Shown in pieces: positions 5,126-63,430 of a stretch of DNA of 64,000 nucleotides. The notes beneath the pieces are model-generated. The model was not told the origin of the DNA and did no database searches. It saw nothing but the letters and a program-made list of their open reading frames with translations. The position numbers were made by a program, and so were the translations under genes. Source of the stretch: Heterotrichella gracilis (taxonomy: Eukaryota; Sar; Xanthophyceae; Tribonematales; Xanthonemataceae); the NCBI GenBank assembly GCA_032358255.1, contig JAULBX010017525.1:1-64000 (forward strand), given 5' to 3'. How positions within the stretch are numbered: position 1 is the stretch's first letter; each line of letters starts with the position of its first letter.

Positions 5126-7796
5126 ATGGCAACTGCCCTAATGCAGCCCTCTACCGCTGCTCTCCCGTCCCCGCGAGTGGCCACCGCCCCGTCCGTGGGG
5201 CACCGGCCACAACAGCTTACCCAACACAGCCCACACAGCTGGCACCACCACCACCCCACCAGCACCACCACCCACCGCGCCTTCACCCAGTCCTCACCTT
5301 GCGGTGGTGGTGGTGGGGTTGCAAGCAAGGGGAGGAAGCACAGGGGAGGTGCCCATGTGGCCAGGGGAGCAAAATTCTTTGGCTCTCTGTTTGGCAGGTA
5401 TCCTTCAACTGACCCCTTTGTGTGTGGAAATGACTTTTCCCGCCAGTGTGGGCCAGTTGCTCCCAAGGGGTTGCCGCTCTGTGCCCAATCCCCATCCCTG
5501 GTACCCGCCAATCACAGTCAATTGTCCGTGGAAAGAGGCCATCCAATCTCCTCTTCCCTTAGCGGCATGCTTGCTGGCCCTGGTGTGCTGAGACCTTGCT
5601 TGCTTTGCATCGAACCTGACGCCATCCACCCACGCACCCAACCACCCATCCTCACACACACGCATCCACAACCCATTCCCCATCCCCCACCGCAGCAGCA
5701 GCGGCGATGGTGCACGTGGGACCATGCCCCAGGAGGAGATTGACACCGGGCCCAGCCTACCCACACTGGAGGAGGAAGCGGTGCGCTGCAGATCCTAAAC
5801 CCTAAACCCTGACCCAGAACCCTAAGCCCAGAAGGAGATAGACACGGGGCCCAGTCTGCCCACACAGCGGGGGGATCTGGTGCAGTGCATGCCCTGCTCT
5901 ACTCAGCTGTGTGTGACCTGGCAAATTTTCATCCTGCTGGTGCAGTGCATGCCCTGCTGTACTCAGCTGTGTGTGACCTGGCAAAGTTTCATCCTGCTGG
6001 TGCAGTGCATGCCCTGCTCTACTCAGCTGTGTGTGACCTGGCAAGGTTTCATCCTGCTGGTGCAGTGCATGCCCTGCTCTACTCAGCTGTGTGTGACCTG
6101 GCAATGTTTCATCCTGTGCATGGCCTCCTAGTTCTCAGCATGGCCTTGAGGAGGCAGTTGCCAAGGTCCTGTTACCCTATGCGCAGTCTTGAGGTGGTAT
6201 GAATCGGGTCCCTAATACCCTGATTCCCTTCCCTGTGCACAGTCCGGTGTGATGTTAATTGAGACTTTAAACCCTACCCTTCCCTGTGCACAGTCGGAGG
6301 TGGTATTGATCGAGAGCCAAGGGGACGAGAAGGGGTCGGTGGCGCGCATCGTGTACCGCAACGGGGGGCAGGTGGATGCGCTGGCACTGGAGGTGCTCTG
6401 CGATAGGGTAAGGGTTCCTGTCAATTACCCTTCAAAACCTAGTCATGAATTTGCTGCCGTTCTCTTCTGAGTTCGAACCCCAATAACATTGTACGCGCAT
6501 GCTATCTTCGAGCACACGCCTATCACCCATCACCCACATAGCCACACGCACAAGGAGCTCTACTCCTTTGGTCCTAAAACCCTAATTCCTCGGTTCCAAA
6601 ACCCTTGTTATCCCTGGCACAGGTTGGGTGGCCTCGACGGCCCCGCTCCAAGGTGGAGGCTGCACTGCGCAACAGCTTCCTGGTGGCATCGCTGCATCTG
6701 CAGGTGGGTGGTGGTGGTGGGTGGCGAGAGGCGGATCTTTGGTGGGTAGCAAGTGGTGGGTGGTGGGTCGTGATGGGGGGTGGACCATGCTGTGTTATGG
6801 CACCCCTGTACCTGTAGGTGAGGGAGATTTCACAGTGGGTTTAGGGTAAACCCTAAATCCTAAACCCTAAATGGGTGATTGGCCCTGGGTGATGGGTCAC
6901 GATGGGTGACAAAGCATGATGTGCGGGCCGCCCTCCGAGTGCATGATCAGCATTGCGCCGCCCACCAGCGGACCACCTTCAGCGCAACATATGGGACGTG
7001 CTGGCTGGACCCCACGCACAGGCCCCACCAAGAAAAATCCACTCTCATCCCTCTCCCCGTACCATCGTCCTCACCCGCCCACCCACCCACGCAGCTGTCG
7101 CAAAACGGCGCCCCGCCCTCCGAGCGCATGATCGGCATGGCGCGCGCCACCAGCGACCACGCCTTCAACGCCACCATATGGGACGTGCTGGTAGACCCCG
7201 AGTACCAGGGCCAGGGCTTGGGCAAGGCCCTTGTAGAGAACATGGTGCGCACGCTGCTGCGGGAGGACATCCAGAACATCACCCTTTTCGCGGATGCTAA
7301 CGGTGAGTGATTGGCAGTTGTCAGGTTGTCAGGGTGGCAGGGTTTTCAAAACCAGGGTTTGGACTGTGCAACATGAAAGCTGGGTGCGGGCAAGTTGTGC
7401 CTGTGCTTGTTGAGAATATGGTGCGCCCGGTGCTGCGGGAGGATATCCAGAGCATTACGCTGTTTGCGGACGCCAACGGTGAGTGCTGTTGTGGGCTTCT
7501 GAGGTTGTCAGGGTTTTAGGGTTGTCAGGTTTTAACCTGTGGAACATTATGCTGGGTGCAACGGAACCCGTTGTTGGCATGGTGTGGGTCGGTGGATTTT
7601 CTAAACAGCCACAATCACACTGCGTGCTTGCATGCTGCCGTTCTCACCGCCGCACTTCCCGTCTCCACTGTTGCAACTGTCATCCTAAAACCCGAACCCT
7701 TCCTGTCTTCCTGCAGTGGTCACCTTCTACCGCAACCTAGGGTTTGAGGCCGACCCCGAGGGTATCAAGGGCATGTTCTGGTACCCGCGCCTGTGA
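5126..7796 (+). CDS. SNAT: Plastid-type GNAT N-acetyltransferase (SNAT/NSI family)
   Basis: Six exons: 5126-5397, 5696-5780, 6294-6407, 6623-6703, 7095-7302 and 7717-7796. All phases close, giving 279 residues. The first 90 residues are Ser/Thr/His/Pro-rich with no acidic residues and look like a plastid transit peptide. The core matches plant plastid GNATs (NSI/serotonin N-acetyltransferase): [15 protein letters not shown], then [19 protein letters not shown], the acetyl-CoA loop QGQGLGKA at about 222-229, [24 protein letters not shown] and the terminus MFWYPRL. It probably transfers acetyl from acetyl-CoA to protein lysines or N-termini and to arylalkylamines in the chloroplast; the native substrate cannot be told from sequence. 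Exons 2, 3 and 5 have diverged edge copies in neighbouring introns. The family call is firm; the choice between SNAT and NSI naming is not. Confidence 0.93.
5831..6262 (+). repeat. Exon 2 and exon 3 edge copies of the acetyltransferase, in intron
   Basis: 5831-5880 repeats exon 2 sequence (the segment encoding [11 protein letters not shown] and its donor side). About 6230-6262 repeats the 3' end of the intron, its acceptor and the first codons of exon 3 (5' edge copy, upstream of the true exon at 6294). Neither copy is needed for the frame. Confidence 0.7.
5879..6116 (+). repeat. 60-bp tandem repeat, four units
   Basis: Four consecutive units of exactly 60 bases begin at 5881, 5941, 6001 and 6061; the last is cut short. 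Units differ at only a few positions (for example GCAAATTTT, GCAAAGTTT, GCAAGGTTT, GCAATGTTT). Because 60 is a multiple of three, all units read in one open frame (about 5880-6131). That frame is not spliced into the gene in my model; the array lies inside intron 2 of the acetyltransferase. Confidence 0.95.
6916..7484 (+). repeat. Flanking copies of acetyltransferase exon 5 edges
   Basis: 6916-7020 is a diverged copy of the 5' part of exon 5 (PSERMIG through IWDVL), placed upstream of it. 7395-7484 is a copy of its 3' part ([15 protein letters not shown] through FADANG), placed downstream and ending at its own intact GTGAGT donor. The true exon is 7095-7302. The downstream copy is in frame internally and could act as a decoy or alternative exon edge. 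Confidence 0.85.

Positions 7797-63430: not shown

Follow-up and report, generated by a model that had tools for sequence, protein, structure and literature searches.

Exon edges are copied into the adjoining introns

Why do the introns of this DNA carry copies of the exon edges that adjoin them? The window analyzed here is the whole stretch of 64,000 nucleotides from contig JAULBX010017525.1 of Heterotrichella gracilis, which behaves as eukaryotic nuclear DNA in its split genes and its GC content of 47-61% (2-kb steps). To look for exon-edge copies, we searched each of 55 exons against its own non-coding DNA within ±2 kb (threshold at least 32 bits), with five distant windows per exon as a control (n = 275). 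This resulted in 50 matches between exons and their own introns, all 50 in direct and none in inverted orientation, compared to a single match in the 275 control windows. In 47 of the 50, position followed a strict geometry: 21 copies lying upstream of the exon held its 5' edge, and 26 lying downstream held its 3' edge. None of the 50 copies contained both edges, and 32 of the 96 internal exon edges had a copy at this threshold. A looser search using each exon plus 25 bp of flank found weaker copies at more edges, along with inverted matches from three different pairs, four rows in all, each weak (about 30 bits) and at that search's cut-off. Chance or low complexity was rejected given one match per 275 distant windows and no inverted match among the 50, and a dispersed element was rejected because the copies match their own exon.

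Three of the 50 break the geometry as scored. One is an amine oxidase copy at 46282-46326 that, read by eye, starts at the acceptor and has an internal deletion; another, at 26095-26165 in the diacylglycerol kinase (DAGK) gene, lies within an exon of doubtful annotation; the third is weighed below. When the search was run with uncorrected exon ends it gave 51 matches, two of which (11811-11828 and 51587-51643) are probably chance. On this 51-match list all seven genes hold copies (19, 10, 9, 6, 4, 2, and 1, the RING gene having one). BLAST of the window against itself found 122 repeat pairs, of which 106 were direct and 16 were inverted.

The initial annotation had claimed that diverged copies of exon edges lie in the introns, one to four per edge, with 5'-edge copies upstream of the exon and 3'-edge copies downstream. 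All of this was borne out in the window, up to the four copies at the 3' edge at 48525. The exons that it singled out do carry copies: the acetyltransferase exon 7095-7302 (6928-7013 and 7406-7485), the "RAP exon" 37357-37635 (37719-37830, 37904-38013, and 37233-37301), and the amine oxidase exon 57246-57355 (57503-57581, 57691-57749, and weaker ones downstream). The second of these labels holds in that the exon belongs to a RAP-domain gene, but the RAP domain itself is C-terminal in the product (residues 880-936 of the typed protein, Pfam).

Gene models on both strands came from a home-made splice-aware hidden Markov model (HMM) trained on the window itself, and Pfam and PDB matches were used to support the HMM genes. 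Seven genes were supported in this way: GNAT acetyltransferase (+), ammonium transporter (+), TLDc (-), DAGK (+), RING (+), RAP (-), and copper amine oxidase (-). The counted list of 55 curated exons was derived from a first list of 63 HMM exons by reassigning five as copies (12527-12561, 31284-31388, 37731-37826, 39913-39981, and 47935-48018) and removing three doubtful ones (12388-12418, 26728-26917, and 62506-62541). Three exon ends were shifted by eye, smaller HMM exons were not taken up, and counting starts at 5.7 kb. For the ammonium transporter, the choice of exons agrees with PDB alignments, which skip query residues 148-193 (from the extra exons); for the other genes, the exon was taken to be whichever copy joins the remaining reading frame. 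The models are incomplete, chiefly in the long amine oxidase introns and in the region below 5.7 kb. Neither Rfam matches nor tRNA genes were found in the window, and no relatives of its sequence were found among viral contigs.

Copies by gene

The copies are listed below by window position and strand, with percent identity or the method by which an array was found. Telomere-type repeats are rotations of CCCTAAA.

7095-7302, +, GNAT exon (Pfam GNAT), edges copied on both sides
6928-7013, +, 5'-part copy upstream of GNAT exon 7095-7302, acceptor lost, 84% identity
7406-7485, +, copy downstream of 7095-7302 covering its 3' edge and donor, homology through the intron part, offset 176, 85% identity
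12330-12368, +, 3'-edge copy of ammonium transporter exon 11954-12156, 92% identity
12489-12591, +, second 3'-edge copy of ammonium transporter exon 11954-12156, 91% identity
13147-13238, +, 3'-edge copy of ammonium transporter exon 12879-13036, donor lost, 76% identity
13326-13445, +, second 3'-edge copy of ammonium transporter exon 12879-13036, 69% identity
14420-14803, +, 5'-edge array of ammonium transporter exon 14771-14939, offsets 98-143 bp, three intronic copies, match search and Tandem Repeats Finder (14568-14803)
15073-15110, +, 3'-edge copy of ammonium transporter exon 14771-14939, 84% identity
15364-15409, +, 5'-edge copy of exon 15482-15583, telomere-type repeats in spacer, 89% identity
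18960-19245, -, 3'-edge tandem array of TLDc exon 19204-19390, period about 120, two intronic copies, Tandem Repeats Finder and alignment
17818-17855, -, 3'-edge copy of TLDc exon 17923-18155, 84% identity
18188-18257, -, exception, copy of internal segment 18451-18515 of TLDc exon 18370-18674, 84% identity
23765-23860, +, 5'-edge copy of DAGK exon 23979-24161, 86% identity
24727-24823, +, 3'-edge copy of DAGK exon 24429-24623, 85% identity
24950-25019, +, second 3'-edge copy of DAGK exon 24429-24623, 77% identity
25926-26029, +, 3'-edge copy of DAGK exon 25652-25807, donor position reset by eye, 88% identity
32394-32441, +, 5'-edge copy of RING-gene exon 32543-33368, acceptor lost, 80% identity
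36645-36710, -, 5'-edge copy of RAP-gene exon 36159-36526, 83% identity
37233-37301, -, 3'-edge copy of RAP-gene exon 37357-37635, telomere-type spacer, 91% identity
37719-37830, -, 5'-edge copy of RAP-gene exon 37357-37635, HMM exon, reclassified, 94% identity
37904-38013, -, second 5'-edge copy of RAP-gene exon 37357-37635, 85% identity
38346-38416, -, 3'-edge copy of RAP-gene exon 38479-38560, 86% identity
38876-39176, -, 5'-edge tandem array of RAP-gene exon 38800-38903, offsets 79-96 bp, three intronic copies, match search and Tandem Repeats Finder
39908-39993, -, 3'-edge copy of RAP-gene exon 40035-40268, telomere-type spacer, HMM exon, reclassified, among the most similar, 95% identity
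45344-45415, -, 3'-edge copy of amine oxidase exon 45469-45620, 89% identity
45852-45914, -, 5'-edge copy of amine oxidase exon 45469-45620, 79% identity
46826-48447, -, four 3'-edge copies of amine oxidase exon 48525-48747 (46826-46951, 47920-48005, 48101-48187, 48304-48447), 70-91% identity
48787-48890, -, 5'-edge copy of amine oxidase exon 48525-48747, 87% identity
53208-53404, -, three-unit 3'-edge array of amine oxidase exon 53351-53548, period about 68, GTAYGCC donor after each unit, Tandem Repeats Finder
53614-53673, -, 5'-edge copy of amine oxidase exon 53351-53548, 88% identity
55266-55521, -, 3'-edge array of amine oxidase exon 55490-55586, period about 101, Tandem Repeats Finder
55758-55831, -, 5'-edge copy of amine oxidase exon 55490-55586, homology reaching into the intron, 89% identity
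56229-56639, -, 3'-edge array of amine oxidase exon 56577-56676, 74-79% identity
57503-57749, -, two 5'-edge copies of amine oxidase exon 57246-57355 (57503-57581 and 57691-57749), 89% and 83% identity
60829-60897, -, 3'-edge copy of amine oxidase exon 61036-61249, 93% identity

A 54-bp tandem pair at 98% (45784-45893) overlaps the older edge copy 45852-45914: here a recent duplication sits inside an old one.

Copies decay near-neutrally

Functional exons would show much lower change at first and second codon positions and few frameshifts. Across the 51 matches, exon and copy differed at 118/1037 first, 106/1025 second, and 221/1022 third codon positions (11:10:22%); this 1:1:2 pattern is predicted when an unconstrained copy accumulates about 11% change per site and the exon changes silently. 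Indels shifted the frame in 23 of 27 cases (same matches), stop codons numbered 5 among 989 codons, and codons with a single difference comprised 146 non-synonymous and 143 synonymous changes. The copies thus decay near-neutrally.

These counts bear on the idea that the copies serve as alternative or mutually exclusive exons. In its favor, the HMM itself called several copies exons, and an outer GT or AG is kept in 41 of 43 junction pairs after register correction (37 of 43 in the first scoring), against about 80% expected at 11% divergence. Retention becomes 41 of 46 when three site-less copies are counted, which is not clearly over neutral; as these copies (6928-7013, 26095-26165, and 18188-18257) lay outside the 43, special conservation of outer splice sites was not kept as a finding. 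None of the 51 matches covers a whole exon, and offsets adjoining the real exon are a multiple of three in 11 of 32 cases, about the chance share. With the codon-position pattern, the frameshifts, and the near-equal non-synonymous and synonymous counts also against it, use as functional alternative exons is highly improbable.

Tandem structure in part of the junction pairs

We assembled 43 junction pairs by hand, with offsets of 63-286 bp (median 132), a median exon part of 63 bp, and a median intron part of 16 bp, compared to 4 bp at unrelated junctions. In a test of 43 edge events from the 51-match list, the intron parts were homologous beyond both junctions in 23 (z > 2 against dinucleotide shuffles); three more events were skipped in this test for spacer length, and five of the 51 matches failed the edge rule. 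Units align over their full length at 7230-7405/7406-7590, 19129-19245/19010-19128, and 57300-57502/57502-57690, and Tandem Repeats Finder reported arrays that cross from intron into exon at 14568-14803, 18960-19245, and 53208-53404. The offsets fall weakly into two groups, at about 106 and about 198 bp (Bayesian information criterion 463 for two groups, 468 for one, and 443 for three, the third being one outlier).

We then simulated neutral decay of a clean tandem unit and scored a pair as a misfit when its intron part fell under the simulated 5% point. Of the 43 pairs, 37 were testable and six were too short; 10 of the 37 were given a default age, their register being unclear. A clean tandem unit was compatible with 21 of the 37 pairs, several of them with little power (5% point 0-5 bp). 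The proposal that segments were duplicated in tandem across the junction, with the inner junction kept, therefore stands in part: the geometry, these 21 pairs, and the crossing arrays agree with it, but in the other 16 pairs the intron part is missing or unrecognizable.

Proposed mechanism and alternatives

Junction-spanning small tandem duplication at a high rate, followed by neutral decay of the outer copy, is probably the best explanation of the copies. It builds on the observed direct orientation, geometry, near-neutral decay, and, for part of the pairs, tandem structure. Under this model, a segment straddling an existing splice junction would be duplicated in direct orientation. The inner junction, still attached to the exon body, would remain in use and preserve the reading frame, while the outer exon edge and its splice site would turn into intron and decay neutrally. 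Duplications that break the exon would be purged by selection, so that the survivors would be 5'-edge copies upstream and 3'-edge copies downstream; since selection keeps the exon intact, nothing more is needed for the near-edge geometry. Repeated rounds would give arrays of two to five edges, and introns would lengthen while the protein stayed unchanged. The mutational step may be error-prone repair of staggered breaks by fill-in and end joining, at times leaving extra filler between copies, telomere-type repeats included, and splicing is presumed to occur at the inner sites.

Several observations weigh against this explanation. A clean tandem unit is rejected in 16 of the 37 testable pairs, where the intron-side match ends too early; five young misfits (40035, 37635, 61036, 37357, and 45469) match over 5-15 bp where the 5% point is 34-107 bp. 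Intron-part homology is not significant in 20 of 43 events. Mean ungapped identity is about 0.8 in the exon and roughly random within about 7-10 bp of intron, at donors after about 7 bp (25 donor and 21 acceptor copies), a drop that comes partly from indels and register slips. The TLDc copy at 18188-18257 is a real exception to the geometry, holding an internal exon segment only. Finally, exon ends come from our own HMM and were partly corrected by eye, five exons were reclassified, and the models are sequence-based predictions. The misfit pairs need inserted filler, faster intron turnover, templated insertion, or gene conversion of the exon part; we rank filler first because it keeps the geometry.

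Two of these possibilities are rival explanations of the pattern. In templated insertion by synthesis-dependent repair, an intron break would be patched with a nearby exon edge, leaving an old spacer and an edge that alone is new. The homologous stretch, at a median 0.70 of the offset over the 43 pairs, and the absence of the expected intron part in the 16 misfit pairs fit such patching. It predicts, however, that internal, far-edge, and inverted copies should be common, and inverted copies number 0 of 50 and those not near an edge 3 of 50 as scored; true tandem arrays are also unexplained by it, and we consider it unlikely. Gene conversion, in which the exon overwrites nearby old copies so that the exon part stays similar and the intron part ages beyond recognition, seems somewhat less likely still. 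It would account for intron sides that are over-diverged relative to exon sides in 16 of 37 pairs and for the scarcity of non-edge duplications relative to a uniform model (see below), and 9 of 24 pairs do show uneven exon-arm divergence (p < 0.05; combined p about 2 × 10−6). This unevenness can be explained by alignments overrunning the copied segment, and mosaic divergence within copies is confounded because all nine diverge more away from the junction; moreover, 21 of 37 pairs fit one shared age.

Exon edges as likely preferred sites

Small tandem duplication could also be a uniform background process, with edges noticed only because their conserved exon half stays recognizable. To count non-edge events, we masked exons and exon-derived copies and performed BLAST (E < 0.01, offset at most 600, outside the 49.4-53.3 kb block), which left 16 direct and three inverted rows. 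Eight loci were independent of exon edges (620, 5877, 15859, 29407, 30871, 44956, 57829, and 62096), locus 620 being outside the counted area; the remaining direct rows were edge arrays or the repeat at 5877. In simulations, non-coding duplications were detected at 0.59-0.78 of the edge rate. The positions available number 12,557 at edges, 16,755 in intron alone, and 15,006 between genes; at a uniform rate, the 43 edge pairs would imply 64-85 events away from edges, 27-35 of them in amine oxidase introns and 30-40 between genes, and 8 were found. Younger inserted DNA may lie in the amine oxidase introns, and constraint may act on the intergenic DNA. In the six short-intron genes, 7-9 non-edge events were expected and two were seen (29407 and 30871).

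Pure ascertainment at a uniform rate was the reading we favored at first. Consistent with it, 7 of the 16 masked direct rows are edge arrays, and the intron parts of most edge units escape the same BLAST; the numbers in the six short-intron genes are small; and Tandem Repeats Finder adds off-edge short-period arrays that BLAST missed, at 30336-30421 (44 bp) and 55934-56001 (23 bp). The detection simulation weakened this reading, and we now regard it as possible but doubtful. Duplication is likely several-fold denser at exon edges, a preference that depends on the model assumptions and on the incomplete gene models. Tentatively, junctions might even be hot spots of the repair process that duplicates them, often leaving telomere-type filler, such that introns would grow outward from exon edges as fossil records of their own exons and present a steady supply of decoy splice sites.

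Three other repeats occur in the window. Four tandem 60-bp units at 97% match (5877-6116) form a young minisatellite upstream of the acetyltransferase exons. Within the 4.6-kb amine oxidase intron, 49400-53300 holds diverged direct and inverted repeats and is probably derived from a mobile element. The third, likewise from an amine oxidase intron, is an inverted repeat with arms of about 140 bp at 81% identity (47014-47157/47445-47582) that looks like a miniature inverted-repeat element.

Relation to known processes

The initial annotation knew of no named process behind such copies. This is too strong because small tandem duplication by break repair is known (PMC8355091), and tandem genomic duplication (PMC3443670) has likewise been named. 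The available part of PMC8355091 describes small tandem duplications that arise when staggered DNA breaks are filled in (CST-Pol alpha-primase, 53BP1/Shieldin, and end joining), calls them more frequent than any other short (<100 bp) insertion in the human genome, and links them to nearby nicks on opposing strands. Like the duplications described there, the window's copies are direct, local, and short; unlike them, they have offsets of 63-286 bp, often an unduplicated spacer, and a dense distribution across splice junctions. We infer that they may belong to this break-repair pathway of small tandem duplication.

Tandem genomic duplication, according to the available parts of PMC3443670 and PMC2891723, is a route of intron gain in which an exonic segment holding AGGT gives rise to a new intron. 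As there, a splice-site segment is duplicated in the window, the coding sequence is unchanged, and part of the duplicate becomes intron; unlike there, introns already present grow longer, and what is duplicated is an existing junction. No new intron was found between two AGGT copies; the copies sit inside introns beside their own exon, most with the same junction's outer copy. Hellsten 2011 and Gao and Lynch 2009 are cited in these papers on this route of intron gain.

Tandem exon duplication and mutually exclusive exons, as presented in the available part of PMC9013439, also place direct exon copies in the adjoining intron, whereas the window's copies are frameshifted, decaying edges and not whole exons. 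A whole exon with both splice sites was copied in 0 of 50 cases, after reclassification of the five HMM exons. Introners and other dispersed intronic elements would enlarge introns too; unlike introners, the copies are local to their own exon, with no sequence shared across unrelated introns (1/275 distant windows). Pervasive duplication of existing exon-intron junctions was not described in the titles and abstract openings among the matches listed, in which subscription journals are mostly uncovered.

Possible consequences for intron growth

Intron lengthening is usually attributed to transposons and small indels. Here, a third of internal exon edges (32/96) carry recognizable self-copies, and as a rough estimate there is about one junction-spanning duplication per ~67 substitutions, or ~2 bp of growth per substitution (from 43 junction pairs, with 12,557 start positions possible and a detection integral of ~0.23). 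No comparable growth-rate figure from another genome was found. Because the conserved exon half is a dated reference, such a genome could show directly how often small tandem duplications occur, how large they are, and where their boundaries lie. The copies also raise the question of how splicing chooses the inner site while intact outer sites persist, and gene finders may mistake copies for exons, as our own HMM did.

Telomere-type repeats between copies

CCCTAAA rotations cover 9.0% of the spacers between copies and exons. Their coverage is 5.1% in the 49.4-53.2 kb block, 3.5% in other introns, and 1.4% in intergenic DNA, compared to 0.95% in copies and 0.36% in exons; 15 other (shuffled) repeat families matched in composition stand at about 0.65%, with averages of about 0.45-0.8%. 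In a paired comparison of 37 pairs, coverage was 14.4% in spacers and 6.8% in equally long outer flanks (p = 0.022), with tracts present in 18 of 37 spacers vs 12 of 37 flanks. Edges with a copy had such repeats nearby in 16 of 35 cases, compared to 15 of 61 without a copy (p = 0.042). These figures are suggestive of telomere-type repeats as filler between copies. Set against that reading, the 16 misfit spacers carry less of the repeat (9.7%) than the other 21 (17.9%), the spacer-flank comparison within the 16 misfit pairs gave p = 0.35, and tracts inside arrays were counted more than once.

The available part of PMC2246262 describes telomeric repeats inserted at double-strand breaks, with target-site duplication at 6 of 130 rodent and 4 of 25 primate loci. 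The window would resemble those loci in break repair that leaves telomeric repeats, accompanied at some of them by flank duplication; it differs in that its tracts are degenerate, widespread in introns, and found in 18 of 37 spacers, by association only.

In total, the window has 53 degenerate CCCTAAA/TTTAGGG tracts of at least 14 bp (e.g., 22351-22397, 39015-39047, and 39793-39830), which occur throughout introns and more sparsely between genes. The C-rich strand is mostly sense in the acceptor half of introns (405 vs 109 bases; 302 vs 358 in the donor half), a bias near acceptors that could serve splicing. At 6837-6871, in an intron of the acetyltransferase gene, telomere-type repeats stand head to head, TTTAGGG followed by CCCTAAA.

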